This document shows positions 20,663 through 64,000 of a DNA stretch of 64,000 nucleotides, piece by piece; positions within the stretch are counted from its first letter, which is position 1; each line of letters begins with the position of its first letter. The stretch is taken from positions 99,903,319-99,967,318 of the forward strand of contig CP136066.1 in assembly GCA_032622095.1 (NCBI GenBank), written 5' to 3'. The notes under the pieces were generated by a model. The model was not told the DNA's origin. It made no database searches and worked only from the letters and a program-made list of their open reading frames with translations. This DNA comes from Siphonodentalium dalli (Eukaryota; Mollusca; Scaphopoda; Gadilida; Siphonodentaliidae). The translations under genes were made by a program, and so were the position numbers.

Positions 20663-21033
20663 TGATCGTCTCATTAGGAGTCGATAATGTGACTATAACG
20701 CTACAAGGTACAGTGCTTTCTGTTAGGAGATTATATAACTGATTAGTTTCTTATTGTCGTGTGAAATATATCAAAGACTATCATAATTGATCAACGAAAT
20801 GATACCCATCATGGTACACTAAATTAGTGGTTTCAAATGGTTCACAATATACTGGTATACATTCATTCTTTGAACTAATCCCATTCATGGACTATAAACT
20901 AGATATGCACGCACCCAATCTGCGTGGGTTTTATTTATCCTAAAAACCCCTACATCACGATACACTAAAGTAGTGGTTTCAAATATATAGATATGGACGC
21001 ACCCAATCTGCGCTGGGTTTCTTTCATTCTACT

Positions 21034-21216: not shown

Positions 21217-21398
21217 AAACAATTAAATGACAATTTGGTCCAATGTGACCTTGTTTACGTTTCGACATTCGGCCCATATTTCTAGAATATTTCATCGACA
21301 TTCACGACAGGTGATCGATGTAGCGTGCCCACAATGTTGTGCAACTTTCAAGTAAATAAATGTACAGTTTTATTGAAACACATAAGAATGCCAGTTCC

Positions 21399-21776
21399 CA
21401 TAACTGAAAAGAGTTATTTTATTGAGAAATAGCTGTCATAGTGTTGTCGACAAGTTTGGTTTATTTGAGTAAAGCTCCGCCCATTACTCAGAAGCGGCAC
21501 CAATATATTTGTAAACGTACAACACGTGATCGTCGGTGTCAGACTGCCTTCAATCTGACATTTTTCTGTTTTTACCTTACACTGGGCTACATTATAGTTA
21601 TTGCAGCCATGTTGACCTCCAGTTATAACATATACAATATAATTTAACATATAACATCTGCTTTGTTCTGTTGAAAGCAATAATGACATGTAAACTGGAC
21701 CGATAAATACCAAAGAATATAATTTTGTTATTGAAAAATTAACTATTTATTTTTAGTGTCCCTCTCAATCATCGGA
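21399..21776 (+). repeat. 378-bp near-identical block shared by both duplicates
   Basis: It matches 63076-63453 with the same length and a single difference (A at 21452, C at 63129). Flanking parts of the duplication differ by roughly 5-10%. It has no convincing coding frame; it contains CTCCGCCCATTACTCAG and CACGTGATCG. Confidence 0.9.
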
Positions 21777-21842
21777 TATGTATGAAATAAATGCATATCA
21801 TATTCAATATCGAACAAAATAACATATTTCTTGTAGCACGTG

Positions 21843-26655: not shown

Positions 26656-28931
26656 CGATATACATCTATACTATACTATACTGCTGGTCATTATTTTTTC
26701 ATTTATTAATTTTATGAAACGATAGACATTGTGCAGCACCTGAGATTTATTGTTTTTCATAAGTGAGATGAGTTTATCGTCATTTGGGTGTGTATAATAG
26801 TATCGCGGAATAAATTTAACCCTGGTATCGTTGAGACTCTCACATATCAGTAGTGTGTGGTATTCGCTTCCAATAGACTTTCCACATAACGTGCACGTGT
26901 TACTGGTGGGAAAGTTTTTCCAACTTGACGTTTCAATTGCCAATCGATGATTTCGCGTGCGGAATCGCAACAACGATAATGCTTCGTTTGTTGGGAGCTT
27001 TAGAAGGTAAATTTCTTCTTCAAATTCGTTTTTGATCATTCTATAGAATTGGTATTTGTCAGAGGAATTAATTATGGTTTGCCATTCCTGTATATATTCA
27101 TCTCTTAGCTTCACTTTGATTGTCTGACGAAACCAGTTTTCCCTTATAATATTATGGGACAACCAGATATGCGACAATCCGATATAATTGAGTGTAGTTT
27201 GTATATAGCGGATCCAACCGAGACCAGTTTTGTGTCGGTTTATCATGTTGTGTATAGTGGCATACAAGATATAAGATATTTTAGTTTGATTTCCGCTCAC
27301 TAGTCGTGACCAATAGTTTAATATTCTACTTTTAATTTTACTCGTTATCGGTAGTAAGCCTGTTTCTCCATAAATCATCGCCGTCGGTGTTGATTTTTTA
27401 AGTTTTAATACAAATTTGAGGAACCATAATTCAGTGCGCTTAATTATTTCATTGTTGGCCACTCCCCACACTTCACAGCCGTATGTCAATATTGGTATAA
27501 CCGTTTTTTCATAGAGTTCGATAATACACGTCAAAGGGAGCTTCCATTTTCTAGCTTTGGAAATAATAGAAAACATAGCATGTTTGGCTTCATCACATCT
27601 CCTTTTCTTTTCGGCTACAAAAGAACCATTATTTGAAAAGATCACACCTAGATATCTATATTCTTTTTTTACTTCAATTGGTTGATCATTAATTGTGAAA
27701 TTGATTTTGGAATTTCTATCGTGACCGAATATCACAATATTGCTTTTGCTGTTATTTATTGTCAGCTTCCATTTTTCACAGTAAGCGGCATATGCATTTA
27801 ACATATTTTGCAATTCCTTTGGGCTATCAGCCAGTAGGACGGTGTCGTCGGCATACAACAGGCACATTATTTTGATATGTTCATGAAATGTGGTTTCATT
27901 TAGGTCAGCTAACGCAATACCCTTCTGGTCCATGTCATATAAATATGTTTCAAGGTCATTGAGGTAGATCGAGAACAGTATTGGTGATAGGTTCTCTCCT
28001 TGCCTTACACCCATTTCACATGAGAAGGAAGGAGAGCACCTACCCCCAAGAGATACACACGATTTTATTCCATTATACATGTTCATTATTAGGTGGAGGA
28101 CCCGTCCTTTAATTCCTATTTCTAAAAGTTTTCTCCATAGTCCAACTCTCCAGACGCTATCAAAGGCTTTAGACAGGTCGATAAAAGCACAATATAAACT
28201 CATTTTTTTCTTAATTTTTGTCATTTCAATTAGGCTATGTAATGAGAAAATATGATCTACTGTTGAGTAATCTTTTCTGAACCCAGCTTGGTTTTCTGAT
28301 AATAATTCGTTTATTTGTAGGAATGTATATATACGATTACTTAGGATTGCTGTAAATAATTTCGCCACACAGCTAACTAGTGTAATGGGTCTGTAGTTGT
28401 CAGGATTTTTAGGATCTTTGGATTTAAAAATTGGGTGGATAACGCCTATTCCCCATTCATCAGGTATGAAGCCAGTTCGCAAAATCAGATTGAATAGTCG
28501 AAAGTACAGTGGTTTCATCTGTTCGAAAGTAGCTTTTATATATTCACATCGTATATTATCAACTCCCGGTGATTTTCCAAGTTTCAGATTCCTCACCACA
28601 TCCTCAATTTCCGTTAAAGTAAAATCAACGTCGAGTGAAGATGTTTCAAACTCATGCTTAAAATCGTCCCCGGTATCGGAGGTGCATACATTCTTTTCTT
28701 TGAAATATTCATAGAACTCTGTTAAAGATGGGGTTGTTTCAGTTAGTTTACTATTTTTATTTTGGTTGAGCAATTTCCAATATTCCCTGGGGTTATCAGA
28801 TTTCATTTTTCTTAATTTTGCATTAAAATCAACATCGTATTTTCGTTTGCCAAGTCGCAGTGCATGTTTATATTTATTCCTAGCATCTACCATTTCTCGC
28901 TGTAGTTTTGCGGTTTGGTGTTCAAATGTTC
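26656..28931 (-). mobile_element. 5'-truncated LINE with (TATAG)n tail
   Basis: The element holds one long reverse-transcriptase frame and ends in a short tail of TATAG units (about 26656-26690 on the plus strand). The tail is so close that the TAG stop lies inside it. Upstream of 28931 an in-frame TGA precedes TFEHQTAKLQRE; no endonuclease domain is seen, so the copy is truncated at its 5' end as usual for target-primed reverse transcription. No target duplication could be fixed. Confidence 0.9.
26671..28893 (-). CDS. LINE ORF2 fragment: reverse transcriptase, 740 aa
   Basis: The protein copies element RNA into DNA at the target site. The reverse-transcriptase motifs are all in order: NYRPI (166-170), NQAGFRK (201-207), FIDLSKAFD (237-245), GVRQGENLSP (295-304), YADD catalytic site (347-350) and YRYLG (412-416), then YGCE (471-474). 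A C-terminal Cys/His cluster CTLC...H....C (667-684) follows RTRNHRLAIE, as in many LINE ORF2 proteins. The N-terminal endonuclease is missing. No internal stop was found over 740 codons, which suggests a fairly young copy. The clade is not assigned. A paralogous C-terminus lies at 54029-54523. Confidence 0.96.
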   Translation of the reverse strand: MVDARNKYKHALRLGKRKYDVDFNAKLRKMKSDNPREYWKLLNQNKNSKLTETTPSLTEFYEYFKEKNVCTSDTGDDFKHEFETSSLDVDFTLTEIEDVVRNLKLGKSPGVDNIRCEYIKATFEQMKPLYFRLFNLILRTGFIPDEWGIGVIHPIFKSKDPKNPDNYRPITLVSCVAKLFTAILSNRIYTFLQINELLSENQAGFRKDYSTVDHIFSLHSLIEMTKIKKKMSLYCAFIDLSKAFDSVWRVGLWRKLLEIGIKGRVLHLIMNMYNGIKSCVSLGGRCSPSFSCEMGVRQGENLSPILFSIYLNDLETYLYDMDQKGIALADLNETTFHEHIKIMCLLYADDTVLLADSPKELQNMLNAYAAYCEKWKLTINNSKSNIVIFGHDRNSKINFTINDQPIEVKKEYRYLGVIFSNNGSFVAEKKRRCDEAKHAMFSIISKARKWKLPLTCIIELYEKTVIPILTYGCEVWGVANNEIIKRTELWFLKFVLKLKKSTPTAMIYGETGLLPITSKIKSRILNYWSRLVSGNQTKISYILYATIHNMINRHKTGLGWIRYIQTTLNYIGLSHIWLSHNIIRENWFRQTIKVKLRDEYIQEWQTIINSSDKYQFYRMIKNEFEEEIYLLKLPTNEALSLLRFRTRNHRLAIETSSWKNFPTSNTCTLCGKSIGSEYHTLLICESLNDTRVKFIPRYYYTHPNDDKLISLMKNNKSQVLHNVYRFIKLINEKIMTSSIV

Positions 28932-29625: not shown

Positions 29626-31028
29626 TTATTTACTGTTCACATGGAATTTCCATAGCTCATTCGACTGGAATATGCCGTCATGCTCATCATCTGAGTCGAT
29701 AATTGGTAATATTCTTCTTCGTTTTACTGGTTTATTTACAACTCCTTCCACATAATCGTTGGCAAGTCCTTTTTGTTGCTCGACTTCAACCATGTTTGAT
29801 CCGTAGAAATTGAAGTGGAATGTGCAGTCCCTGTTATCTCTTATCACGACTTTCTTGTTAGAGCCCATGCCTGATTTTGTTACTGTCATTGACTTTTGGG
29901 AAGAGGCGACAAAGTGTGTGTCCAGTTCAAAGTTTTGGTTATTTGTTGACACCGATGATGTTGAAATACATGTGGAATCATAATTCATTTCATGTTGAGC
30001 TTGATGATTCATACTAGTAACAGTAGAACATGAAGCAGAAGCATGATTCTGAGATACTGGTTTTGGTGCCGTTGAATGTCGATACGGAAAACCGCATAAC
30101 TCTCTTGACTCCAGGGGGCGCATTAGAGAAGTTTTTATCGCTTTCTGTTGCTTTTCATTCAACTTACTGTAATTATTGGCACTGCCTACATTCCTGTGTC
30201 CACTTATTTGGATAGTACAATTAGCAGGCAGTCCCATATCGTTACATTTCTGCATCATATGTTTGCGTACACTGTGATTTGTTATTTTCCCCGCATCTTC
30301 TTTCTGCATTATTTCATCACATTTTGATTTCATTTTCTTTACTAGACCGTAAATATGGTTCACTCCCATATAGGAAGTTTTTGAACCAAGGTAGATTGGG
30401 ATTTTTCGTATAGTTTATCTCAAGGAAGAATGGCGAGTCAGGTGTACACAAGGCAGGAGTTCTTTTGTCTCTATATATTTTGTAAGCCCGTACTGGACAG
30501 CGTTGCATATCTTCCATATAGTGCCATGCCCTTGGTTTAAATTTCCTAATATTTGTTGGATCTGTGCCTGTTCCGAGTTTTAGTTTGCCGCTCGCGTACA
30601 TGCTCCAAATATTCATCACAATCCTCATCTGTAGAAAGGCTTATGTCACCCCATGTTAGGCTACGGTGTTCTCTGCTACCGCGCATTCCAAGAACCACTG
30701 AGAATGTTACATGAAGGAAATTCACTATCTGGTTGGGTGTGTCGGTTCCCATCTGACCTGTCTTGAAGAAGTATTCAATGTCTTCATCAGTCAATTCATC
30801 CGATTCATTCGGTTTATTACCACGACCAAGAGATTTTAGATATTTCATCTTCGCAACAGCCTTGTTACTGTGTCGAATCAGAGGGTTCTTATTGACGGTG
30901 TGGGGATAGTGCTGTGGACGTAAATAACGCTCCAAACTGGACACACACCCTCGAATAGTGGAAGGTTCATAATCGTCCCCATTGGTTTTTTTCACAACAC
31001 TGAGGAAATTCCCTTTATCACTTTTCAA
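29626..31028 (-). pseudogene. Crypton/KIAA1958-like tyrosine recombinase, two frameshifts
   Basis: Three overlapping minus-strand frames (31028-30546, 30628-30317, 30369-29626) together give one protein of the family that includes Crypton transposases and the domesticated KIAA1958, ZMYM and QRICH1 domains. Visible in order: an N-terminal SAM-like part (STIRGCVSSLERYLRPQHYP), the first catalytic Arg region (GMRGSREHRSLTWGDI), GTDPTNIRKFKP, PWFKN, the HxxR box (TNHSVRKHM), and the His/Tyr end (ISGHRN...NNYSKLNEKQQ). A low-complexity Ser/His/Gln-rich tail with KPVKRRR follows. All catalytic positions survive, but shifts near 30580 and 30365 break the frame. An intron at one break is possible but no clear splice sites were seen. 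Confidence 0.85.
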
Positions 31029-31029
31029 T

Positions 31030-31570
31030 TCAATTCAACAAGAAATCCTTATAAATCACGGCTAAGTGTGTAATTAAAATACATAATTTCTATTGATATA
31101 TACGAAATGGTCGACAAGGAAGGCTGAATACAACGACAACACACTGTTGAATTATCGTTTATTTTTCATTGTTACCCGTTATTTGGTTATTGTTAAAACT
31201 GTTCTGTTCAGCTGCAGGTGGGTATCTTATCTTTTGCCCATCGTTTTGATTCTTGGTTCGATACGTGTTTGGTTTGTATATTGTTTCATTTTAAATTATT
31301 ATTCGGGAGTTTCCATTTGCATTTTCTGGTTATGTTGTTTGGTAATTGACGTTACATTTCGGTGTTAGCTACATATCAAACATTTCAAGTCTTTTTGAGT
31401 TTTTCTGTTTCCAATTCTTGTTAGAAGGTTGCTAAAGTTGCTCTTGTTCTGTTAGTTATGTTAGATGTAGTTGACATAGTCCTAGTGTTCTATACCGCAT
31501 GTTGGTTACATTATTGCTTCTGTTTTCTAAATCGTTCTCTCGTATCCTGACTCTGGCTTTGGTTCTAATT
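31030..31570. other. Divergent intergenic region
   Basis: T-rich sequence between the minus-strand recombinase and the plus-strand Cys/His-rich frame. No exon is supported. It could hold the shared promoter if both belong to one element. Confidence 0.35.
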
Positions 31571-48065: not shown

Positions 48066-48359
48066 AACATCTGACGGAGTTTGCCAAATGCGCTACGGAA
48101 AACGGCGGAATATATGTCAGCGAGACACACTAAAACGTTTCGTATCACAGTCGAAGAAAATGTGTAAACGAGAATTATTATGATAGCACAATCATCATCG
48201 CCATATTCCAGACATGACTGCACCAGTGTTGTGTTATATTTATTTCTTGGTGCTAGTAGCAGGTCATCTTTTTGGGCGCACTTATCTCCGAGGGTGAAGT
48301 AGATGCTTGAATGTTACGGTGCATCCTTATCTTCAAGTATATATGTTAAATCTTGTGTT

Positions 48360-48935
48360 ATACCCCCGCAACAAAATCGTGGGGGTATACTGGAATCGGA
48401 TTGTCCGTCCGTCCATGGACAAATTTGTCCGGAGTTTTTCTCCATTTTAAATCATTTTTTCCGTGAAACTTGGCAGACATCAACTACCATGGGAACCTGT
48501 GCACCTGCCATTTTATGTCGGTCAGACTTATTTTCGCAGATTTTGGCCTTCTAGACTTATTTTCTCAGTAATGTTTTTTTTTACCAATTATTTGCTGTGA
48601 AGATGATCTCTCATTTTAACTATATCCTAAGTTAACTAAGTATTTTACTGTTAATATCTAACTTGCCACCAGATCATGTCTGTTGAATACATGTCACCTA
48701 TATTTTTATAACTGACTGACATGAAAAACCCTCTGACTACCATGTCATGTTATCCTTGCTACAATCTGGAATGCAGGTCCGTCCGTGGACAAGCTTTATC
48801 CGGAGTTTTGCTCAGTCATTTCTGAATTGTGCACCTGGAATGGGAATATGTTATTTTATTATTTTAACTTAATGCTTACTGACATGTGAAACATCTTGGT
48901 ATCCTTAGTCCTATTGGGACAGTCAGACCTCTAGT
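48360..48935 (+). repeat. CCCCCGCAACAAAATC dispersed repeat, copy 2
   Basis: Same element as 18390-18950 with ACCCCCGCAACAAAATCGTG, then GGGGTATACTGG at the left and CAGTCAGACCTCTAG at the right. It was carried along by the duplication. Confidence 0.8.
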
Positions 48936-49454
48936 TATTTTTAATTCCTCCCACAACCTACCCACACATTGATCGAATATGGCTCATTTACATTATAATT
49001 TCCTCTAAAACCGTTTCAACTGATGCAACCACTTCAATTGCTCATCCACTCAACACTTCGTCATCAGTTGATCATTCGTTCATTGGTGCTGATGGGTGGC
49101 ACATGTTATTCAGTTGGAACAAGGGCGAGCTTATGTATTCTGCTCCTGCAATGCGTGGAATGCCAGGTGTACCAGCCATATCTGTATCCGCTGCCTGGAC
49201 CAAAATACAAGATTCCTTAACACCGCCTTAATAAAATATTTTCAATTACAACATTGATATTACTTCCGTGTAATACACACAAATTACATGCTATATCACG
49301 TGATCGATAGCTTGGATAACTTCGCAGATGGATACATCACAGCGTCTGCTTTCATATTGATTGGAAATAACTTTCCACGACCTATGAAAATAACGTTGGA
49401 ACTGGATGATAAATCTTCTTTAAGATAAGGAATTGGTGTTGATTTTGTTGCATG

Positions 49455-49700
49455 TATTATCTCAGCAAAATTACAGTGCTACGCAAAGTATGGCAGTTAT
49501 TGGTCACAAGTCCGTGTCATCCTAGCGGTATATCAACGTGTTTCTGACGAAGGATGGAGATGGGCCGGCCAATAGCCGCCAAATTGATCCCAAATGGACC
49601 CCCGATCACAAGTTCTAATAATACAGTCAGTGTGAACCCAGATAATGAAATCGCTGGCGCAACGCTAAATGCACACAACACATTGGGGAAGTGAAATTAT
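49455..49700 (+). pseudogene. Tyrosine-recombinase fragment, copy 2
   Basis: LSQQNYSATQSMAVIGHKSV, then SS, is broken by a one-base loss (TCCCTAG becomes TCCTAG). The Tyr segment YQRVSDEG continues in the next frame. Decay is independent of copy 1, so neither copy is under selection for this protein. Confidence 0.7.
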
Positions 49701-49790
49701 GTATGAACCGATGGCGAAACGACAGCGAATACTCACAAATGTATGTTCATAATCCAGTATTTCATCAGAATACACATGCAATCCATTAAT

Positions 49791-49940
49791 CTAATCTTGA
49801 CAGTGGCACTAGACCAGAAAAATGCATCAATGTCATCATCAAAAAACAAGTGCACTGGTAACTTCAACATAGCAAGTTTCATGAAAGAACTATTTGAGGA
49901 AGAGCTCACAATCCCGGCGATTGTATCATTAGACAAGTAA
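49791..49940 (+). CDS. Short ORF, copy 2 of 19831-19980
   Basis: Reads from a valine-led start region into ALDQKNASMSSSKNKCTGNF, then NIASFMKELFEEELTIPAI, before TAA. Open in both duplicates. Function unknown. Confidence 0.35.
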   Translation, partial: LILTVALDQKNASMSSSKNKCTGNFNIASFMKELFEEELTIPAIVSLDK

Positions 49941-50753
49941 TCATAATTTTGAAAAGCTTACTCAGGAAAACATGGCCGTCACCGAAAGCAAGAATTATAT
50001 TGGATATTGGACACTTTTGTCATTGAGTGTGTTATTAATAGAATTATAATTACTGTTGCTCAAATGCGCCCAATTCAATCACACGTCTCGACGGGGCATG
50101 CTAGTAGTACAACGTAATCCGAATAGCACGCTTAAATCTTTACGCGAATGACGTCAACTATCGCCCAACATACAAATTGGCTCGGAAAAATGATCACATT
50201 ACGGTTGCTATGGAAACTATGGTAAATTGGGAACAAAATCGTTATCTTCAGGGAACATACCGAATGTATCTGAATGTCTTTTTGAACAGACATTCAAAAT
50301 CGACATCCAAGTATTAAATCTCCATATACCCCCGATGTTGCTGAAGATAACTAATGAACATAAAAATCGACATCCAAGTATTAAATCTCCATATACCCCC
50401 GATGTTGCTGAAGATAACTAATGGACATAATCTCGCGCAAATACGCACATATATCGACATATAATGTGAAATAGATACATAATGTGATTATTTGATTTTA
50501 AAATAAGCAGGTAATGGATTCATACATTTAGTTCTATGGCGCGGGCCAAAGTGAAAACACATGTTAAAGAGCGTACACATGAAAAGTCTTGAGTTGGCTT
50601 ACTTGTGTCATTGCCCGCACATAATCTGCTTATAGTGGGGCGGATAGATGACACAATCGTGCATTTTATGGTAAAAGCACCAAACTTGACACGCATGTAC
50701 TACATATAAAAATAAGACATTTTTGATATCATGCCAAGCTGGAGAATGGCCAT

Positions 50754-50769
50754 GGTTGCCATGGCAACC
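50754..50769. promoter_or_regulatory. Perfect RFX X-box palindrome, left end
   Basis: GGTTGCCATGGCAACC is a perfect 16-bp palindrome matching the X-box consensus bound by RFX factors (GTTGCCATGGCAAC). A counterpart lies at the mirrored place of the other end. Function in the host is inferred only from the motif. Confidence 0.5.
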
Positions 50770-50969
50770 GTTTTGACAACAACTCTTGTTTTTCTCTCAA
50801 TCCCAACAAGTATGCATCGTTATGACTCAGTTTCTGATCGAAAAACAATGTTTTATGTACCTATTTGTACTGAAAAGGGATCAGGCTATATATCCATTGA
50901 CTCATGTGTCCGTTATAGTTGGGTAGAATCAAAATGGCGGATAAAATGGCCGCCATTTGTTTGAAAGTC

Positions 50970-51870
50970 CCTATTATTGGCTGCGTGTATCGACATTTTA
51001 TTGAGATGTGTGTATATTTTTTATTATAAAATGTACTTTGACAAGAAAATATAAACTGATAAATCACTCTGTATATATATAACAATTCTAAGGAGTGCAA
51101 AAGAAAAATTATAGGCCAGAAGATGATGGAGTAGCGTAAATATAATGCAAAAATAAACAATGGGTTGTTTGTTTTGATTACTATAATTGATGGTTACAAT
51201 GACACGAGAAGCATTTCTATGATATAAAACTATCTGAAAGTTGATTATGACAATCTACCGCGTTAACTTTATATCATATCATTTTAGCGAGTGTGTGTGG
51301 ACAATATTGGTCTGGTACAAAACTGCTTGGCAACCGTTGCTATGGAGCTACCCGATTACGTTTGTGCAGCTATAATAACACTTACTCACAATTTGACAAG
51401 CTGCTAATCATTGTTGTATTATATACGCAACATACAAGTACCGCAAAGTTTACATATTTATGATATTAGCTATAATTCTTCAAAATAGAGGTAAGCAAAT
51501 GTTTTTATTACGAGCGTAGGTGCGAATTATGTGCGACAATGTATGATATGAATTGCTTACATTTACAATAGCAATATCGTGAGATATATGTAATTCCCTA
51601 TATAGTTGTTACACAACTTAAGTGTGCTAAACAAATTGATTCTAATATATTATGAGAATCAATCATGCAATAACTCGTGGCATTTCGCCGCTCCAATATA
51701 GGATAAAACAGTCGAAGACACTCATTCTGCGATAAGTGGCATTCAATAATGTGCAATGGATAGTCAAGTATGAATAATTCATGACAAATCGCCAGTCAAT
51801 TCTGCTAGTTGTGTTAACGCACCCTAAAGAGTTAGAAAAACTTGCATACATGTCACTTTTGGCAACACTT
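50970..51870. other. Interior of the 11.7-kb element, no gene recognised
   Basis: AT-rich. It contains GGCAACCGTTGCTATGG near 51331, which resembles paired RFX half-sites; otherwise nothing I can support. Confidence 0.35.
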
Positions 51871-51871
51871 G

Positions 51872-52027
51872 CAGTAACGCCTTAAGTAATCGACATCCTA
51901 ACCACAGCAGAATTATGGGTAACTTTCAGGATTTAGTCGGAAATATGGAAATTTATTTCCGACTAAATCCTGAAAATTACCCATAATTCTGATGTGGTTA
52001 AGGGGTCGATTACTTAGGGCATTACTG
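51872..52027. mobile_element. Hairpin MITE, 156 bp
   Basis: CAGTAACGCCTTAAGTAATC at the left is mirrored by GATTACTTAGGGCATTACTG at the right. The inner arms GGATTTAGTCGGAAATA.., / TTTCCGACTAAATCC are near perfect, leaving a loop of a few bases near 51950. No clear target duplication. Non-coding. Confidence 0.82.
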
Positions 52028-52140
52028 TATTTGCAATTGCAACTGCATAGAGCAGTACAGCGTAATGATGCCCTCGAAAATTTGCAATTGTTTTTGCATC
52101 CATTCTTGCAACCACGTCGCAATAGTTCTTGGCAACCTTT

Positions 52141-52476
52141 GGATGCTCCAGGATTGATTGATTGATTGATTGGGGTTTATTGTCGCTTTAGCAACTAAGG
52201 CCATATCACGACATTGCCAGTTTTAGTGGTGGAGGAAATCCGCACACTTGCGACTAATCTAACAGTGATTTCAATGGCTGATAAACTCGTCAACCATGCG
52301 CCGCAAACCACCGGCCATCGGCGAGTAACTGGTAACTCCACCAGATAACGATTTCGAGCTACAAAGTCCACGACGGAAACATGAGGATTTGAACCCTTAT
52401 CGCCAGCGCTGGAGGGCGAAACGGCTTGGAGTTGTACCCCTAACCGATTGAGCCACCGAGGCCCCGGATGCTCCAG
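52141..52476 (-). mobile_element. tRNA-derived SINE with 11-bp target duplication
   Basis: The SINE runs right to left from 52465 to about 52152. Its head holds an RNA polymerase III box A (TGGCTCAATCGG, 52444-52455) and box B (GGTTCAAATCC, 52385-52395). A conserved central domain (CCACCACTAAAACTGGCAAT, then GTCGTGATATGG) follows, and a tail of (CAAT)n (52151-52171). The target duplication GGATGCTCCAG is perfect on both sides (52141-52151 and 52466-52476). The tail and central domain are of the kind common in mollusc genomes. The copy looks young; mobility would need a partner LINE. Confidence 0.93.
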
Positions 52477-52479
52477 AAA

Positions 52480-53070
52480 GATCGGTCCATGTCACACTCC
52501 AACTTTCTTCATAGTAGCCTGTCATTTGTATAAAAAAAATGGGTTTCGTAAACAAAATTGGGGATTTCGTGCAATGTAGTTAATCGTAAATCCCATATAC
52601 TGGAGACATTGGAAACCATTGTTGATAAGCTTCTTATCGATTAGTAGCCTAAAAAATGGCATAACCATAGCAACAGTATGTGGTTTCTGAGAATTCTGGA
52701 AAATGATCATATGTGAATTAGTTTAGTGACAACGGTGGACTTGTTGGTGGATATGGTTATATAATAATACTTGCATGCATACATTCTCCAAGACGAACCT
52801 CCAGCACTGATCTCAAGAGTCAAGGTGACTATGAAAGGTCAAGTGTTTTATCACTTCATGTGCTATTATTTGTCTTTATGAGGAACCTTTCTCAATTTAT
52901 TGCATCATATTGATATTCTGTTACATTCTGGAGATCATAGCCTTTATTTTTAGACACATATCTTATCCATATGCTGATTATTACTTGTGTGAGAGATTTT
53001 ACGAAACATGTGACCAGGCCAATTGGCGACCCTTAAACTTAGAAATTGCTGTTCCCGATAGACAATGGCC
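52480..53070. other. Interior of the 11.7-kb element, no gene recognised
   Basis: No exon, RNA gene or structured repeat seen. Confidence 0.35.
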
Positions 53071-53077
53071 ACACCAT

Positions 53078-53330
53078 TAGTTGGGTGGAAAGAGGACACA
53101 ATCGTCAATTTTAAGGGGATAAAATATGATCCGAATAACGTACACCGTTGGCATGGCAACCATTTTGGTGAATCACCTGTTGTTTGTCATACTCTATCCA
53201 TTATGTATTGCTAATGACCAGAAACCTCATAAAAATTGTTCGCTGTGCATCTATTTTGATTGGGTCATATACTTGTAAGAACATATAAATTTTATATATG
53301 GGTAGATTCAAAATGCTATCCCCAACAGTA
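53078..53330 (+). repeat. Decayed internal copy of the element's left end
   Basis: GACACAATCGTCAATTTTAA, then CCGTTGGCATGGCAACC and finally ATGGGTAGATTCAAAATG, follow in order the left-end sequence at 50650-50945 (GACACAATCGTGCATTTTAT, CATGGCAACCG, TTGGGTAGAATCAAAATGG). Similarity is weak but collinear over ~250 bp. Confidence 0.5.
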
Positions 53331-53339
53331 TGGTAATAG

Positions 53340-54020
53340 GACGCTTGTACGCCAATAAAAATAATAATATATATTTAACAACAGTTGAGCATCGATGTTT
53401 TTATTTATTTCCAGATATTGTCGTAGAACAGGGATAAGTTTAGTTGAAGTGCTTTAAAGTTGTCGGCCTGGGATTACTCAAGTACACAATTTAAAATCCA
53501 TATCTCAGGTAAAACATCCGCTTTGCGAGAACGACCGAGATGTTGCTATGAAAAATCCGTTTATCAACTATACATCAAATCGGTCGACGTTTGTTCAAGT
53601 TATATATCGCGATAACGACATTGGCAATGGGCCTTTTGTTTCTGATTTACTGCTTTGAAAAATTCGACTGACTGAACACTGGGAAAGGATAGTTGAACAC
53701 TATTTCAATAGAACACAAACAGTATATGTAAGACAGACGTAGAGAGAGAGAGATAATATAGAGTGAAAGACAAGGTATATAGATGGAGAATGGAGAGAGA
53801 GCGCGGGAAGGGAAAGATGCTTCTTTTATATTTATATTTTGCCTGATAGATATATAGGGTTATTGTTATTAATTTCGGCGTAATGGTTGCGTGTTCGGTC
53901 AATGGATATGGATTTTGAATGGTTTAAGTGATTAAGCCTCAAGATGAATCAGATTGTATTACTTGTTGTGCTTATCAAATAAGCCCATCTGCAGCCATAA
54001 ACTATTGTATTGGTGTTGGG
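53340..54020. other. Interior of the 11.7-kb element, no gene recognised
   Basis: AT-rich with a GAGA-rich patch (53740-53810). No coding signal. Confidence 0.35.
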
Positions 54021-54028
54021 GTCCTTCT

Positions 54029-54523
54029 TCATAAAATGTTGGTACATGTGTAAGAAACAAGTATATTATAACGGTATATTTTGAAGGGGGTTACATGTTT
54101 GTCCGAAAATGTAGCCTCAAGAGTTCCGAAATATATCAATGACCTTTTTTTTATAAAAACTGAGAGATTCTTGGTAATTCTTCTGTTGTGGTTATTGAAT
54201 AGTGCTGCTAACTTGTTAGCGTTTGGTCTCCGATAATAGTATGGTCCCAGGTATTGTACGCGTATGTCTTGGGGTTCAATACATTTAAGGATTACATGAT
54301 ACTCGTCGCATATTTCTGAGTTGCAGAGGGCACATAATCTATCCGAATATGGGGCACTGGTCCACGTGCCATATTCTATTGAGAGTCTATGGTTCCTCGT
54401 TCGGAAAAGAAGGATGCTTTGCATGACTCTGTGGTTTGTTATTGATAGGTAACTTTCTCGTTCAAATGAGGTCTTGATAATACGATAAGATGCGAATTTA
54501 CTGGATGTTGCTATCGATGACAA
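54029..54523 (-). pseudogene. LINE ORF2 C-terminal fragment
   Basis: The frame reads SILLFRTRNHRLSIEYGTW, then LCALCNSEICDEYHVILKC and YLGPYYYRRPNANKLAALFN. It aligns with residues 639-715 of the LINE protein at 26671-28893, including the Cys/His cluster. No reverse-transcriptase part precedes it. A short dead copy from the same LINE group. Confidence 0.88.
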
Positions 54524-54805
54524 CTAATTGTGCTTGGCATGCTCATCGATACTCATTCTCATGATAGCATTATGTATTCAAGCAAGTGTACTAGTCATCA
54601 TAATTATAAACCTGTGGATATATATACATAATCATAATATTTAATGAACATTGAAGTCACTTCCGACATATATATTAGCTTACCACTAAATCCGTTTTAT
54701 GTTAATGTTCTAATTGGACGCTAGGCCATTGGAAATGCATACATGGATGCTCATGCAGTTCCATATTCGTCAAATGTGTTAGCGTTCATGAATAACTCGT
54801 TCGGA

Positions 54806-55690
54806 CGTTAGAACGATCAACCAATTAGTTTGTAAAAGTGGTCAATATTAGCCAGTTTCTTTGCTAAAGACGTAAGCCTACATCCTTCTCGAAATTTGAA
54901 TGCCATTGTGCGAAAATTTCACCGTTTAATCTTCTAGTCTATTCCAGACAAAGCAATTTTCCAAGTAGATTTGGAGAGCTTCTATGAGTACAATGGCCTT
55001 TCCTATAGAACGTTAATGTCAATAGAACGTTGTTTGATAAACCAACGGCTAATTATGGACCCCTCTACAATTCTGATCTCTCATGATAATCCAGCGACAA
55101 AAAGGGCACCAGTCTCATAAGAGACATATACAACATCACAAAACAACAGGTATGTATTGGACAGTAAACGCCCTTTGTGCTTGTCGTGTTTAGTAACTCA
55201 TTCAACGTTCTTTTTAAATATTTTAGAGTTTGCGAGTTGTTAGTCTTGGATCTGATGTTAGAATAATGAACCAATTAGTGTGTAAAAGTGGTCAATATCA
55301 GCCAGTTTCTTTGCAAAAGACATAAAGGTTACATCCTTCTAGAAAATTTAATTGTCATTGTGTTTCGCAAATTTAACGGTTTATTGTTCTAGTTTATTCT
55401 AAGCAAAGTCATTATCAAGGTAGACCTGGAGAGCTTCGATAGGCATTATGGTATTTCCCATAGAAATTTAATTTCAATAGAACGTTGTTTGATAAACTAA
55501 AGGCTAATTTTGGACCACTCTCCAAATCTGACCTTTCACGATAATCGAGCCATAACAAAAGGCCACCAACCTCATATGAGCGATATACAACATCACAGCA
55601 CAACAGGTGTGTCTTGGAGGTAGTAAGCGCCCTTTGTGTTTGTCGTGTCGAGTTATTCATTCAAAGTTTTTCAATTAAACATTAAAAGTT
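54806..55690 (+). repeat. Two-copy ~445-bp tandem repeat
   Basis: GTTAGAACGATCAACCAATT... (54806) and GTTAGAATAATGAACCAATT... (55257) start two units at about 85% identity by eye, each with GCCAGTTTCTTTGC.AAAGAC, ATAGAACGTTGTTTGATAAA and AACAACAGGT.. . A further inverted fragment of the same family lies at about 60005-60085. Confidence 0.85.
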
Positions 55691-55699
55691 CTCTTCCTG

Positions 55700-57180
55700 C
55701 TGGATCGGTAAAAAGCGACATTAGCCAGTCAATATAGGTGATCGTGAATATGTGGCAGTGAGGCTCAAATTGCCTCTACTCCTATCGTTAAGGCTACATA
55801 CACATACAGACAATACGTTTACAACTTAAAGTCTGAAAGTAACGGTATGACATGTTCAGACTAAAACCGGACCATTGTCATGTGCACATAAATTATAAGT
55901 ACTTGTAATAGCGTGTGTACCCCTCCCTTCTCACACCCCTGAATCGAACGGAAATTTGATGGAAACAATTTGATGGCGACAAAATGTTTCACCAAATGTT
56001 TGGTTGGTATCCGTGGTGCATGTCATATATATATATATATACCAGCCAGATAAACATGTATCACTTAACATGGCCTATGAATAAACCCACTTGTATGACA
56101 TGTTATAATCGATATATATACAATCAAATACATACAACTGAGCAGTATTTGTTACGTGCTTCATTTTGTACGTATGCATATAAATTGTATACTAGCAGTT
56201 ATTATGTATATATGCAAAATTATTATGTTGGGTTTTATGTTTGAACATATAGGCCGGAGTCATCATCTCCAGTTTAAACATCCGAGTTAAACCTGGTTTT
56301 AGACCTACATTGGTGGTCAAAGGGCGCATCTTGTCGTTCAGTTGTCATTTAGTTGATAACTCTATTCGATGGTATGAACATGCAGTCAAACTACCTTGTT
56401 ACCAATCAGAACAATGTGCAGGCCGATAAAACGCTTATTGACACGCCATAAATTATCGCGAGCGATATGTATTCATTGAGAAACAAGTATCGCTCATGGA
56501 CCACTAATCCATTCTTATTCTGCGTTTAAACAAATCTGCCAAAGGGCATGTCTCTCGACGCGAGTTTCACCACTTTGTTTGTGGTTTTCCGCAAGATGCT
56601 TTACCCGAAAAGACAAAAGTTGGTGTGTTTACATGTATGTTTATATAGACATAGTATGAGATCTGTCTATCTATCCGTCCGTCCGTTCGCAATTTGTCGT
56701 CCTAACCCCAGAACCGCTGTTGTGGGTTAAGTAACTAGATAGAACAAGTTGTAACGAGCACATTTGTTTATTGTTTTGTGTCTACTGATCGCCGCCAAAA
56801 GAGTAGCCGTTAACGTGTCACTTGCAACACTTAGGAAACAGCCGTCCACACCATAGTATCGAACGTGTTTTTATTTTTGAAAACAATGAAAACTGGTTCA
56901 GCCAGTTACAGAGGTGTGTTGACGATTTAAATGCAGACGGGGAACCACAGTGCAGTTATATTTGTCGTTAACTTCCTGTTGATCTCTCCAAGACAAAATC
57001 CATACATGGGAATGACATGACCACCATCCGATTTTAAATGTGTGGAATCGAATAACTTTATTCTCAATACTTGGATGCCATATGAGTTTGTTATTTTGTG
57101 CATAATATTAGATAATCCTTTAATCAAAAACAATCATTTTTAGAACTGGAATTGCAAACAAATATCTTCGATCTGAATTG
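55700..57180. other. Interior of the 11.7-kb element, no gene recognised
   Basis: Short TA tract at 56027-56042 and a possible local repeat GTGGGTTGGCG-type at 57180-57400. No exon supported. Confidence 0.35.
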
Positions 57181-57430
57181 GGTGGGGGTGGCGAATAACT
57201 GTATTCTTCAAACTTGGGGTGGCGAATAACATTGGTCTTTAAACTCCGACGTAGATACGTTTCTAACTTTTTGTATTTGATTAGACGATCCTTCATTCAT
57301 AAACAATCATTTCATAGAACTGGAAGTCGAATTGAGAATAAAAATCTGCGATCTGAAATTATGTATTGGTTGGTGGGTTGGCGGGGTGGTGAATAACTTT
57401 ATTCTTAATACTTGGATATCAGATAAGTTT
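57000..57430 (+). repeat. ~180-bp degenerate direct repeats (GGCGAATAACTTTATTCT)
   Basis: GAATAACTTTATTCTCAATA, then CTTGGAT, occurs at 57050 and, as GAATAACTTTATTCTTAATA, at 57390. AAAACAATCATTTTTAGAAC at 57126 is echoed by AAACAATCATTTCATAGAAC at 57300. Confidence 0.6.
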
Positions 57431-57497
57431 CTTATGCTGTACATTACATTAGTCGATTGACAATAGAGCCCAATTATTTAGCACAACCCATCCTGAT

Positions 57498-58325
57498 GTT
57501 GAAAATGAACATGCCATGCTGCTACTAAGAAAAGTATACAAGGAACCAGTTTTTGAACAGTTGCCCCCACACTAGTGAAATCTATTTCATTCCTTGTATT
57601 GTCTTTAAGGTGTTTGATGAATGTTAATTAACCATAGAGTTAGAGATAGAACAAAATTTATTAAGGTTAACGAGCCATACAGCTCTAACGGCAAAATGAA
57701 CAATGACCGTTTTCAACTATATCGGGTCTTGCGTACAATGTTATAAATCTATATTTTATCTGACAACCATAGACGTCACGTGACATTAAACCACATTAAA
57801 TCACACCAACATCATAGTGAAATCTATTTCATTCCTTGTATTGTCTTTAAGGTGTTTGATGAATGTCAATTAACCATAGAGTTAGAACAAAATTGATGAA
57901 GGTTAACTAGCCATACAGCTATAACGGCAAAATGAACAATGACCGTTTTCAACTATATCGGGTCTTGCGTACAATGTTATAAATCTATATTTTGTCTGAG
58001 TTAAACAACCCACAATGTTAACTCCAACCTTCCTGAGCACATCTGCTGTTTCGACTGAACCAGTAAACAATAAAGGCAAGTGAACCGGATGATTTGGGGA
58101 TATATGGCGGCTATTTGGGGTAGATTTGGTCAAAAACATGCACAAAAATCCTCGAAAATATCCTGATTTTTGCTTAAGATGGCAGCCATCTTGGATTTGG
58201 AGATCACGTGACATTAAAACATTGGAATAGAGTGCAATTTCGATGTTGAAAATATGCATGCCATGCTTCTACTAAAAAGTATACAAGGAACCAGTTTTTG
58301 AACAGTTGCCCCAACCCTAGTAAAT
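57498..58325 (+). repeat. Nested direct repeats (~175 and ~75 bp)
   Basis: TAGTGAAATCTATTTCATTC starts two nearly identical ~175-bp units at about 57576 and 57815. GTTGAAAATGAACATGCCAT, then GC..CTACTAA, at 57498 recurs at 58240, each followed by AAGTATACAAGGAACCAGTT, then TTTGAACAGTTGCCCC. Confidence 0.88.
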
Positions 58326-58387
58326 GTCCCGTAGTAATATGGAAATCATTATTAATTTTGTTTAACCCCAACGGTTTCGTGATCATT

Positions 58388-59112
58388 TTACCTTAATAAA
58401 AATATGATATATGTATCGCGCATGGACCTCAACATTGCACTTTTTGTTGCTAAATCGGCTGCGTGGTCAGCACCATGGCAGTCACAAGGGACTGAATTCT
58501 CGTGCGGTGCCGCACAGCGGGCATCTATATAGGACAGGGAGGCAACCATATAACCCGTTCCATATTTTCGAAAATAGGGCTGAAGTCGTGCATGGAGTGT
58601 CAAAATAGCCCCTTTTGATACTAAATCGGCTGCGTGGCCAGATCCATGGCGGCCACCCGGGAATTCTTGCATTTTCGTGCGGTGCCACCCAGCGGGCATC
58701 TATAGGACAGGGACGTGACTATATAGCCCCTTCAAAATATTCGAAAATTGGTCTGAAGTCGTGCATGGAGACCAAATAGCACGTTTTGTTACTAAATCGG
58801 CTGCGTAGCCAGAACCATGGCGGCCACCCTGGAATCCTGGCATTGCCGTGCGGTGCCACCGAGCGGGCATCTTATATATGACAGGGGCACGACCATATAT
58901 ATACACGGAAGGATTCCCTTGTGACTGCAATGGTTCTGGCCACGCAGCCGATTTAGCAACAAAAATTGCAATGTTGAGCTCCGTGCACAACTTCAGCCCA
59001 ATTATCGAACATTTGGAAGGGGTTATATGGTTGCGTCCCTGTCCCGTTGACGCCCACCGAGTGGCACCGCATGCAAATGCAAGGATTCCCGGGAGGCCGC
59101 CATGCTTCTAGC
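58388..59112. repeat. ~171-bp tandem units followed by an inverted unit
   Basis: CTAAATCGGCTGCGTGG-type starts occur at 58451, 58621 and 58794. Units share CCATGGCGGCCACC, TGCGGTGCCACC.AGCGGGCA and TCGAAAAT.GG.CTGAAGTC. From about 58905 to 59110 the sequence runs backwards (CACGCAGCCGATTTAGCAAC), giving a foldback structure. More GC-rich than its surroundings. Confidence 0.88.
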
Positions 59113-59119
59113 TACGTAA

Positions 59120-61030
59120 TCATGTTTATGGGCTGCGAAACGGTTTTCAAAAACATTTCTTTGTTTTTTTGTGACATCTCCCAGTCTGTTGTTGAAAATA
59201 CGTAAGAGTTTTAGGTCCTGATGGATCTGGGTTTTCTCTATCCATATTGTCGATTTAATTGTTTAAATACCAGAGGAGCAGATGGTGGCGATTTTCTGCT
59301 ATGTCTATATAGTGGTATAAACGATACGACGTCACGATATCGGGAAGAGAAGTCCCAGAACCCAAGATACTGGCAGGTATACCACGATGAGATCAGTGAA
59401 ACCCACTTGAAATCCTAAACGCTCTGTATAGTCACACCGACTATCGACCCATTGGCCAAAGCCGGGACTATAGCCTATAGTACATGTATGAGGTGGCGCG
59501 GCTTTTCCAAATTAATTGTCAACACACCTCATCCCACACGGACAACATCTTCATGTATACGGTATTTTTATTTGTTTATATCTGCATTAAGTATACACTA
59601 ATACTATAAAACAAGTTGATTATACGGTGACAGTCTTGATTTCTTGTTTACACTCAGACAGGATGTCATCCGGAAAACTAGCAATTTATTTGTGCCTAAT
59701 ATTCAGCCAACTTAAGTCGGACAACGATTCCAACATTTATAACCAAAATATGCAATATATGTATATAGTCATTCTCCAAGACAATGCCAATTTGTATTGT
59801 AATAATCAATCGGATAGGAATTTCATGAAAGCATTGTCATTCTGTGTACGTAGCATCAATTATAAGACTGGAGCTATATTTCAGCCTTTTCTATACATGC
59901 CCAGCGATACCTATATCGATTGGCATGTGTCCCTCGTCAAAGTTTCAACAGGAAGGGGATCCGGATGTTGAAATGTAAACCGTTGAAAGAAGCACTCAAT
60001 GTGATAACTACAAAAGGCTTTTACCACCCAAGGCGCACCTGTTATTCTGGAAATCCATATATTAATCTTATGAGACTGGTGGCAGCGAACAGAATTGGAG
60101 AGGTGATTAAAAATAACTCTATAGATACTGACACACAATGTTCTGTTGAAATGAATCTCCTAATTGAAAATACCGCTAGGTTTATCGACGCTCCGTGGGT
60201 CTACTTGGATAGATCTTGAAACTTATGATGCAGAATAGCTTTTACCTCCCTATAACTCAATTGGAAATTAATTGATTAATCTTGGCATATATCACAAAGA
60301 AATGGGTTCATCGTCCAAACCATGACTAAAACGCACACTGCCAAACATATTTAATATAAAACATTTTTGACATAGCATCATACATCCTGGGACCCAACTT
60401 TAGCCCGAGCCTGTGTACATATTCCGTCATTTTCTAGTCATTTTTTTTTTAATTTGGCACAGATATTAAACATCGTTGGAACCTGCAATTCTGAGTTTGG
60501 TTGGACACATTTTTGTCGAGTTCTTGTCATTTTTGCCGACTTTTCTAGCTCGTTAGCGCAATAACTTGAACAAATATTAACCGATTTTAACAATGTTTTG
60601 CGTAAGAGCTATTTAAAAAAAATTCGAAAACCAGACTTATCCGATCTTTTCTACCGCAATTATGGCCCCTAGTTTGACGAATTTTCTTGATTTTCAACAT
60701 TTGAGGTTTCCGGATGATGACATTTATTCCGGACATATCCAATCCTTCAGTTAGCCACCGTCTCCAGGGACATTGTGGTCGGTCGACCTTTTATTTAATA
60801 TGATTTGGTGTATCATTTCTAGATGAAGACAATCCAACTCGACCACCCATCGGACACTTGAATTATTCTAAACCACACAACTATCGGCATTGCCGCGCCG
60901 TATATATCAGTACCCGATTCCTAGATTATATCCACACTACTTTCCCACCCATCGGAAACATGAATTATCAAAAAAATGCTCTTCATTGTTCGGTCCACAA
61001 AATTTTAGGAGACAACGATACGATTAGGTG
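59120..61030. other. Interior of the 11.7-kb element, weak ORFs only
   Basis: A 114-codon frame (59627-59971) holding MSSGKLAIYLCLIFSQLKSD, and an overlapping frame to 60219, look somewhat protein-like. They overlap a repeat also found at 55.1 kb and have no family match that I know. A dispersed repeat of the GTTTCCGGATGATGACAT type lies at 60380-60790. Confidence 0.3.
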
Positions 61031-61041
61031 CCATTAACTTA

Positions 61042-61400
61042 GGCTGAATAGGTCACTCTCACCGGTTTTCTGTGATAAAGTTACCCAGGTTCCTAATTTT
61101 GTGATAAAGTTACCCAGGTTGGTGAGAATTGTGATAAAGTTACCCAGGTTAAGCAAATCTCACAATATCAACTCGATTTAAAAGTGACAGAGGGGAATAT
61201 TGTTCAGTTTTGGCAAGTAATAGCCCTTATCAAGCATAAATTAAGACATATCACAAAAATCAATAATTTGTTGCTAAACATGAACTATTATTAACCTGGG
61301 TAACTTTATCACATTCTTCTCCAACCTGGGTAACTTTATCACAATTTCAGGAACCTGGGTAACTTTGTCACAGAAAACCGATGAGAGTGACCTATTCAGC
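61042..61400. mobile_element. Hairpin MITE with 8-bp duplication and triple iterons
   Basis: The element GGCTGAATAGGTCACTCTC...GAGAGTGACCTATTCAGC is flanked by TTAACTTA on both sides (61034-61041 and 61401-61408). Each arm holds three copies of GTGATAAAGTTACCCAGGTT (left 61072, 61101, 61131; right, inverted, 61292, 61323, 61351). An 8-bp duplication is typical of hAT elements. Non-coding. Confidence 0.9.
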
Positions 61401-61409
61401 TTAACTTAG

Positions 61410-61890
61410 CAGGTATAATTCCATGCGCATTAAGATTCGTCGACTAAGATTGTTACAAGTAACACCACCAGGGAGATACAGCTGCACCTATGTAGCCTCT
61501 GATGTCTACATATATAGAGTACGGTACATGCAGTTTGCATTGGTGTGTGGCACCGTGGTACGGTATATATCATCTCATTCAAAACCAGCTAAATAATCTT
61601 TTAATTCTTATTTTTTTTTAAACACAGATTCACCCATATTAGCATTGCACTGTATCAACCCAATTCATTGTGCTGTAATGCCGTTGAAGGTTTTTTGTGA
61701 GTTTGTCAGTAGCTTCATATCTGCCCTTACACAAGTTCCATGAATTCCGTTACTAGTTCCCAGACCAACCCCAGTTTCTAGTTCCCAGTTCTCATAATAT
61801 GATAACAATCGTTACTGAATCGCCCACATGTATGTATGCGTAATCACAGCAGCTACGGTGTCATCCTTTCTGGATTCTTCTTGTGCCGCG
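61410..61890. other. Interior of the 11.7-kb element, no gene recognised
   Basis: Short local repeat CTAGTTCCCAG (61753, 61778). No gene seen. Confidence 0.35.
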
Positions 61891-61896
61891 ACTAGT

Positions 61897-62130
61897 CCAT
61901 GAGGAATCTAATGGTGTGGTTTATAGACGTCAATAGTGGCGCCATTTGAGTCAGGGATGCATTGAAGGGGAGAGGTGCACAATAATTAATTAACCTGTTT
62001 AGCGCCGATTTCCACAAAGTTGATACACATTCTTCTCTATGAAACGAGGAATCTAATCGTGTGCTTTCAAGATGGCAAAAGTGGCGCTATTTGAGTCAGG
62101 GGTGCAGTGCAGGGAGAGGGATACCAAAAT
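61897..62130 (+). repeat. Subterminal 149-bp direct repeat
   Basis: GAGGAATCTAATGGTGTG...GTGGCGCCATTTGAGTCAGG at 61900 recurs as GAGGAATCTAATCGTGTG...GTGGCGCTATTTGAGTCAGG at 62049, just inside the right end of the 11.7-kb element. Confidence 0.8.
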
Positions 62131-62182
62131 CGCACTTCCGCAAAAAGCCAATTTGGCATTTTTGGCGGATATGTTTTTCGGT

Positions 62183-62198
62183 GGTTACCATGGCAACC
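62183..62198. promoter_or_regulatory. RFX X-box-like palindrome, right end
   Basis: GGTTACCATGGCAACC, one base from a perfect palindrome, fits the RFX X-box consensus and mirrors the site at 50754-50769 in the other inverted end. Confidence 0.45.
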
Positions 62199-62712
62199 AT
62201 GGGCTTTCTCTAGCATGGCATGATATCCAAATCCACAAGATATCACCTCAGGATATTGTATACAAAGTTTGTTGCTTTTACCTTAAAATGCACGATTCAC
62301 CCTTTTTTTGACACGGAGCCGCCCTACTATTATGGTCGCCTCATTATGAGTCGGTAATGTGACTAAACCGCTACAAGACACAGTGTTTTATGTTAGGAGA
62401 TTATATCACTGATTAGTTTCTTAGTGTCGTGTGAGATATATCAAAGACTACCAGAATTGATCAACGAAATGATACGCATCATGGTACACTAAATTAGTGG
62501 TTTCAAATGGTTCACAATATACTGGTATACATTCATTCTTTGTTTTGAACTAATCCCTTTCATGGATTATAAACTATATATATACACGCACCCAATCTGC
62601 GTGGGTTTTTTCATCCTACTAACAACCCCGACATCACGATACACTAATTTAGTGGTTTCAAATATATAGATATGCACGCACCCAATCTGTGCTGGGTTTC
62701 TTTTATTCTACT

Positions 62713-62895
62713 TTCAACCGGGAGTATGTCATGGATACAAGTTACGTCAAGACAGTTCTCGACACATCAGACAAGATTGATTCAAGTTCATTGCTCTTAG
62801 CAGGGGAGATTCAGATGCTGGCTGGTAAATACAATGGCGTTGCACAAGTGAGCGCCAATTTGAAGGCCATATTCGCTATGGTTTGCCCCTGTTGA
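62713..62895 (+). CDS. Conserved terminal coding exon, copy 2
   Basis: Reads FNREYVMDTSYVKTVLDTSD, then KIDSSSLLLAGEIQMLAGKY and NGVAQVSANLKAIFAMVCP before TGA. Open in both duplicates, unlike the recombinase fragment. The polyadenylation hexamer seen in copy 1 is changed to AATAAC here. Confidence 0.45.
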   Translation, partial: FNREYVMDTSYVKTVLDTSDKIDSSSLLLAGEIQMLAGKYNGVAQVSANLKAIFAMVCPC

Positions 62896-63075
62896 AAACA
62901 ATTAAATGACAATTTGGTCCAATGTGACCTTGTTTACGTTTCTACTTTCGGCCCATATTCCTAGAATATTTAATCGACATTCACGACAGGTGATCGATGT
63001 AGCGTGCCCACAATGTTGTGCAACTTTCAAGTAAATAACAGTAGTTTCATTGAAACACATAAGAATGCGAGTTCA

Positions 63076-63453
63076 CATAACTGAAAAGAGTTATTTTATT
63101 GAGAAATAGCTGTCATAGTGTTGTCGACCAGTTTGGTTTATTTGAGTAAAGCTCCGCCCATTACTCAGAAGCGGCACCAATATATTTGTAAACGTACAAC
63201 ACGTGATCGTCGGTGTCAGACTGCCTTCAATCTGACATTTTTCTGTTTTTACCTTACACTGGGCTACATTATAGTTATTGCAGCCATGTTGACCTCCAGT
63301 TATAACATATACAATATAATTTAACATATAACATCTGCTTTGTTCTGTTGAAAGCAATAATGACATGTAAACTGGACCGATAAATACCAAAGAATATAAT
63401 TTTGTTATTGAAAAATTAACTATTTATTTTTAGTGTCCCTCTCAATCATCGGA
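63076..63453 (+). repeat. 378-bp near-identical block, copy 2
   Basis: Counterpart of 21399-21776 with one substitution and no gaps, embedded in a more diverged duplication. Confidence 0.9.
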
Positions 63454-64000
63454 AATATATGAAATAAATGCATAGCAAATTCAATATCGAACAAAATAGC
63501 ATCTTTCTTGTACCACGTGTTAGTTTTATACAATAGAATCTAATTAAAACATAACATGGGTTTTTTAAGCATTGGTTTGGAAGCCTGAATACATCTTTAG
63601 AACAATTTATTGACACATTTAAAATTAAAAATGACATTTTTAGATTTTGTTTTATTATTATTAATTTCAATAAATCAATGTCAGGCGGAATGTGCCTCAA
63701 CTAATAATCTTCCTCTCACTACCTGTCGTTACTAGCATTAGATATACTAATGAATAAACTACAATATACACATTGTAGTAGATATTTGCGCATTATCCAC
63801 ATTTAAAAGTGAAGAGTTGAATATCAACTCACAGGTGAAAACAATTTCATGAGTACCGGTAATATATTAATATATATATTAATCTTAAGGTTGACTAACA
63901 TATACATTTATTAGTTCCCATGCACTAAACAGTCAGTAAAAATATGACTGAAAGATTTGATATTCAAATGCTATGTCAAAAAGCAATCCAAATTAAATAG

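Follow-up and report, generated by a model that had tools for sequence, protein, structure and literature searches.

A 64,000-nucleotide stretch of the Siphonodentalium dalli genome (GenBank assembly GCA_032622095.1, contig CP136066.1, forward-strand positions 99,903,319 to 99,967,318), hereafter the window, lies at C6:99903319-99967318 in a genome of 2.23 Gb on nine contigs. It holds a mobile element of 11,697 bp (window positions 50633 to 62329, plus strand) that carries no recognised coding domain and is flanked by two copies of a TTA target duplication (50630 to 50632 and 62330 to 62332). The 11.7-kb insertion is a real, recently copied mobile DNA element, delimited by an empty site and by ends and an interior that it has in common with other genomic copies.

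The empty site is a vacant TTA at 20660 to 20662, within a segmental duplicate of the flanks (18242 to 21842). Alignment of this duplicate with the insertion flanks, a check called for by an earlier sequence-only reading of the window, gave 93.2% identity on the left (18242 to 20663 against 48238 to 50633) and 94.6% on the right (20660 to 21842 against 62330 to 63519). The joint reads CTGC[TTA]TGATCG where empty and CTGC[TTA]TAGTGGGGCGG...CCGCCCTACTA[TTA]TGGTCG where filled, TAGTGGGGCGG and CCGCCCTACTA being the first and last letters of the element. Both things which that reading had put forward, an 11.7-kb insertion exact to the base and a natural empty site in the segmental duplicate, are borne out, the site lying near 20.66 kb.

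Genome searches with the left 158 bp and the right 160 bp of the element gave 763 and 494 loose first-look candidates, respectively; 40 of each were scored, all 98 to 100% identical. Where 20 kb was read from each of ten other left ends, eight held the full-length element including its right end; at the remaining two (C9b and C8a) the match ends at an assembly gap, with no right end in the rest of the sequence read. The interior was present (92.4 to 99.7%) in all but one of 20 additional tiles, 13 of which lie behind left ends and 7 before right ends; the exception, near C9:23214136, did not match it. Ten aligned copies (the window copy and all those read from other left ends except C8a) diverge pairwise by only 0.24 to 1.83%, and copying was therefore recent; because these copies were chosen by their best-matching left ends, the figure is an age for the young members of the family, and the zero differences across them in the first 100 bp are an invariance biased by the same choice. 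At element position 6222 (about 56854), some 146 bp are missing from the window copy; of the ten other copies, nine have them and the tenth is unreadable there.

The terminal sequences recur as pairs elsewhere, a point on which the sequence-only reading had made its view depend. For each of 40 listed left ends, the closest right end in facing orientation was sought over 40 kb, among 110 places (100 listed matches to the right-end pattern, which has 120 genome matches, and 10 from the right-160-bp search). A partner was found for 33, of which 26 are spaced 11.0 to 15.2 kb, and none within 40 kb for the other 7; pairs above 30 kb are possibly mispaired, except for a 37-kb copy whose duplication matches. 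A left-end variant with A, G or T as its base 22 matches the genome exactly at 120 places (100 listed); with C2:55775283 omitted as a main copy, 23 of 99 were paired with a listed right end. Two same-facing variant left ends lie 7,399 bp apart at C7:197904042 and 197911441, and another two 7,393 bp apart at C3:151851500 and 151858893. Between the two ends of the C7 locus, L092, are an inverted minisatellite and the greater part of the left half of the element.

As first described, the inverted ends are only partly alike: arms of 33 nucleotides (nt) at 50655 to 50687 and 62265 to 62297 match at 94%, and arms of 49 nt at 50721 to 50769 and 62183 to 62231 match at 88%. By this comparison the left terminal region (50633 to 50769, plus strand), which begins TAGTGGGGCGG, is a partial inverted repeat of the right one (62183 to 62329, minus strand), whose reverse complement begins TAGTAGGGCGGCTCCGTGTCA. 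The motif TAGTRGGGCGG, with up to one mismatch allowed, has two occurrences in the window, neither with a mismatch and placed exactly at the element's two ends; shuffled windows had a mean of 0.54 occurrences, and two were reached in 8 of 100 shuffles.

A plus-strand scan with the patterns GTTNCCATGGCAAC, GTTGCCATGGNAAC and GTTGGCATGGCAAC, the last picked after its sequence had been seen, found three matches in the 64-kb window, at 50755, 53147 and 62184. They lie near the element's left end, an internal relic end (the old remnant of a left end of related type, 53078 to 53116, plus strand; 82% over 39 bp) and the right end. The palindrome resembles the RFX X-box and may be a transposase or host-factor site.

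A 3-bp target duplication is exact in 18 of the 19 copies with both flanks read, the window included; the single inexact one, TTG/CTG, differs by one base. C7:127738531 and C2:55775283 have common flanks, leaving 18 independent sites, and, given the base composition of the window, a 3-bp flank match would arise by chance with a probability of about 0.019 at each site. The sequence-only reading had looked for a consistent TTA/TAA duplication at other copies; TTA or TAA is found at only 7 of the 18 sites, and the other 11 have ATA (four sites) or TCA, AGT, TAT, CTA, GTA, AAG and YTG (one each). The duplication is fixed in length at 3 bp and free in sequence.

Coding relatives with the same ends are present in the genome. 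Tiles of 300 bp were sampled 1.8 kb inward from 20 of the listed variant left ends: 13 match the interior of the window element (92.7 to 98.0%), three, on three chromosomes, are mutually 98.6 to 99.7% alike (the one translated is open throughout), and four match neither the window element nor these three coding tiles, two of the four having, no more than 3 kb away, DNA that resembles the coding gene at 79% and 89%. One coding element (C2:113649215-113656653; 7,439 bp) has the right-end sequence TAGTAGGGCGGCTCCGTGTCA and the duplication CAA/CAA; a second (C3:197363622-197370048; 6,427 bp) has the duplication ATA/ATA and a protein identity of 97%. Both are identical to the window element over 20 bases at each terminus, and the left terminus agrees with the variant left-end pattern at 29 of 30 bases. 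These two elements are the likely driver of the window element. The coding sequence read is 5 kb of one copy, the outer approximately 1.07 kb on the left and 1.33 kb on the right being represented by 20 terminal bases; its stop-to-stop frames, on the minus strand, are of 556, 203 and 207 amino acids (aa). A search with 201 bp of the coding gene gave 23 genome matches, 13 of them at 90 to 100%, and relatives of the coding-element protein elsewhere in the genome are 41 to 48% identical, with open frames of >1,500 aa (up to 1,534 aa).

Three long copies were also considered as the driver and rejected. The 37-kb copy (C2:34571338-34608505; duplication ATA/ATA) consists of the window element and a nested CACTA/EnSpm-type unit of 25.3 kb (L069 to L071, C2:34579600-34608599). 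This unit has a 700-aa open frame, the termini CCCAGTAAACATTG and a target duplication of 2 bp (TA), with Tnp2 and DUF4218 matches below the Pfam cut-offs. The 18-kb and 23-kb copies were sampled by tiles: two of three 600-bp tiles of the former match the element and one is LINE-like (long interspersed element) by eye; two of six tiles of the latter match the element, three look by eye like tandem-type repeats, and the last fits neither.

Passenger and coding copy are linked by sequence inside the left end. Three plus-strand stretches of the window element match the coding relative L113: 51542 to 51870 (75%; L113:125-442), 52018 to 52153 (85%; L113:433-567) and, beyond a short interspersed element (SINE)-like insertion, 52466 to 52511 (87%; L113:555-600); a fourth match is of 29 bp and reversed. 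Within them lies a relic of the transposase's cysteine-rich C-terminal tail (52033 to 52152, minus strand, borders approximate; 40 aligned residues), with a protein-alignment score of 174 against 61 for the best of 500 shuffles. Beyond 52511, the 29-bp match excepted, no stretch aligns with the 5 kb of coding copy read, which indicates that the transposase core was lost and that other sequence stands in its place; for the element's first 909 bp and the region inside its right end, the coding copy is known by 20 to 30 terminal bases. No Pfam domain was found in the element in six frames (X at stops), and a Pfam search of nine element frames gave one sub-threshold match. The earlier statement that no transposase is recognisable stands for domains, but this short relic of a transposase tail is present. 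With paired ends, a target duplication, no transposase domain and a same-ended coding element, the insertion has the features of a non-autonomous DNA transposon, and the suggestion of a large non-autonomous element agrees with a multi-copy, domain-free unit whose coding relatives have the same terminal bases. This partnership is independent of the superfamily name.

We consider that the window element is very probably a large cut-and-paste non-autonomous DNA transposon, descended from a coding element of about 6.4 to 7.4 kb with the same ends and likely moved in trans. This account starts from the observed borders, recurring paired ends, 3-bp duplications, common interior, low divergence and two same-ended coding elements. 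The ancestor, a coding element of that size, would have lost its transposase core and retained both termini and the left-side relic of the cysteine-rich tail. Its middle would then have been enlarged by nested insertions to 11.7 kb, and to as much as about 15 kb in other copies; the SINE-like and hairpin insertions are seen against relatives, and the LINE relic, tandem and foldback insertions are presumed. The coding element's transposase, acting in trans, would most likely bind the shared ends, excise the unit and reinsert it with a 3-bp staggered cut.

Several observations weigh against this account. In the frames read of the coding relative, Pfam gave no model above its cut-off and only unrelated sub-threshold matches, and a genome-wide search for XPG_I gave nine matches, none at the coding-relative places. 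The frames of the coding copy are split, in the 5 kb of one copy that was read. Among the matches listed, the 13 places at least 90% like the coding gene have a variant left end about 2 kb away in five cases and none in seven (one place, on C9, is outside the range of variant left ends listed), and a listed right end lies within 40 kb at two of the five. Transposition in trans by the coding element's transposase is a step that we infer, and part of the internal length could come from rearrangement rather than insertion.

The alternatives differ in what they would explain. PIF/Harbinger elements have a TTA or TAA target duplication, and the sequence-only reading proposed that superfamily from the TTA at the window copy. 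The match extends to the 7 of 18 independent copies noted above; a duplication of fixed length and variable sequence is, however, evidence against it, as are the other triplets at 11 sites, the CAA and ATA duplications of the two coding elements whose terminal bases agree with those of the window element, and the lack of any Harbinger transposase match by Pfam in the frames read of the coding relative. A transposase accompanied by a Myb-like protein was also sought there, and no such domain appears in those frames (from 5 kb of the 7,439-bp element; Pfam names nothing above its cut-off in them). We regard a non-autonomous PIF/Harbinger element as very improbable. Spread by segmental duplication instead of transposition would account for the common flanks of C7:127738531 and C2:55775283, and a segmental duplicate is present in the window itself, but 18 copies have unlike flanks, each with a separate 3-bp duplication (inexact by one base in a single case), and the empty site is clean; we give this explanation next to no chance. 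A compound unit of two related elements had also been suggested; its outer ends would carry along all that lies between. The left end is unlike the right end, a relic end lies at 53078, a reversed left-type end is internal in three copies, and some shorter units join a variant left end to a right end, so that parts may once have moved alone. Yet both coding elements carry this very pair of differing ends, and unequal ends are therefore normal in this element family; the inner ends have no common duplication (CAT versus TTT). Because one interior is common to the eight full copies read, a compound moving unit is not supported, and we regard it as improbable. As history, the compound idea may hold, given the old relic end and the reversed left-type ends.

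The name of the coding partner's superfamily is a separate matter. The Academ superfamily, with its AcademX lineage, is reportedly the work of Kapitonov and Jurka in 2010 and, for AcademH, of Kojima in 2020. The frames of the coding partner contain EEAD, TVDSDVVVL and GCDTVSGFSGRGKKTA, which we take to be XPG-type nuclease motifs. PDB sequence searches with two pieces of the coding relative gave six matches (E, 1.4 to 1.7) for one piece and none for the other; since neither these nor the Pfam and XPG_I searches give confirmation, we infer the name from the duplication length and from the putative motifs with the cysteine-rich tail, which point to Academ (AcademX lineage). The likeness lies in the 3-bp duplications of the window family and of the coding copies (exact in 18 of 19 family copies and in two of two coding copies read), in the cysteine-rich tail and putative nuclease motifs of the coding partner, and in the open frames of >1,500 aa that relatives of its protein occupy; the window element differs in having no recognised coding domain and in its 11.7 kb, against 6.4 and 7.4 kb for the coding partners. 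AcademX duplications are given as 3 to 4 bp and those of AcademH as 9 to 10 bp, the two differing in the enzyme encoded, helicase against nuclease (PMC10045372). The Repbase rule places DNA transposons in one superfamily if their duplications are equal in length and their termini align at positions 1 to 11 with at most one mismatch (PMC4455052). The window element and both coding copies, with identical first and last 20 bases and 3-bp duplications, agree with it, which ties the element to its coding partner, whose own superfamily is presumed. At 11.7 kb, the element also exceeds the mean of 5,565 bp stated for curated bivalve Academ elements (PMC10294476). Large non-autonomous Academ elements were not met with in the literature searched, largely as titles and abstract openings with some longer passages, and this negative is not proof of absence.

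The same mechanism with a partner from another 3-bp superfamily (CACTA/EnSpm, Zator or an undescribed one), the Academ likeness being superficial, is a rather unlikely alternative that concerns the name only and overlaps our preferred explanation. CACTA/EnSpm duplications of about 3 bp are known, the coding relative's family is confirmed by no curated model, and a CACTA-type transposase is nested in one copy. That nested unit, the one CACTA-type unit seen, has other termini (CCCAGTAAACATTG) and a 2-bp TA duplication; these features and the putative XPG-type motifs of the coding partner count against the alternative.

The interior of the non-autonomous element is a mosaic of insertions and repeats. 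The SINE-like insertion (52152 to 52465, minus strand), with an ATTG-repeat tail, lies inside the transposase relic and has 11-bp repeats on either side (GGATGCTCCAG). The sister copy L092 lacks it and provides its empty site. The SINE of the sequence-only reading is upheld as an insertion; its tRNA-like head was read by eye, and ARAGORN found no tRNA in the window. An Rfam scan found no family. A hairpin with 74-nt arms (51872 to 52027; 91% by inverted-repeat comparison) includes about 147 bp that are absent from the coding relative. A LINE relic, the tail of a reverse-transcriptase protein (54029 to 54523, minus strand), aligns with the tail of a LINE frame at 26671 to 28929 with a score of 247, against 70 for the best of 200 shuffles, in agreement with the LINE relic first reported. 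Farther along are a repeat of about 430 bp in two direct copies (54801 to 55683; 80%), a 171-bp tandem repeat that also folds back (58416 to 59116; arms 58633 to 58775 and 58974 to 59116) and a foldback with 118-nt arms (61035 to 61408; 91%); the last two and the hairpin correspond to the hairpin and foldback repeats noted originally.

Elsewhere in the window, the minus-strand frame at 26671 to 28929 is an open, reverse-transcriptase-like frame of 752 aa, apparently a LINE and kin of the relic inside the element. Two open frames at 29626 to 31034 (minus strand; NHSVRKHM... and QISGHRN) have letters that resemble those of a Crypton-type tyrosine recombinase, a candidate identity only.

Non-autonomous DNA transposons are mostly short deletion forms of their drivers. 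The window element is like miniature inverted-repeat transposable elements and internally deleted non-autonomous DNA transposons in its shared ends, its lack of a transposase and its presumed movement in trans; it differs from them in being larger, not smaller, than its coding partners (1.6 to 1.8 times the two measured). The passenger is also more numerous than the coding partners, among the matches listed. That a coding relative moves a non-autonomous element is an ordinary principle; the form here is unusual. To our knowledge, Academ-type transposases have been little studied at the bench. We suggest only tentatively, and with more doubt than confidence, that an Academ-type transposase efficiently moves a cargo of 11 to 15 kb and that a gene-less passenger has here come to exceed its driver in both size and number. 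In that case, the length of the cargo would scarcely limit this type of enzyme, which might be used as a vector to carry very large inserts. The family offers a natural case for the limits of cargo length in cut-and-paste transposition, with a likely driver, its passenger, their ends and an empty site in one genome.

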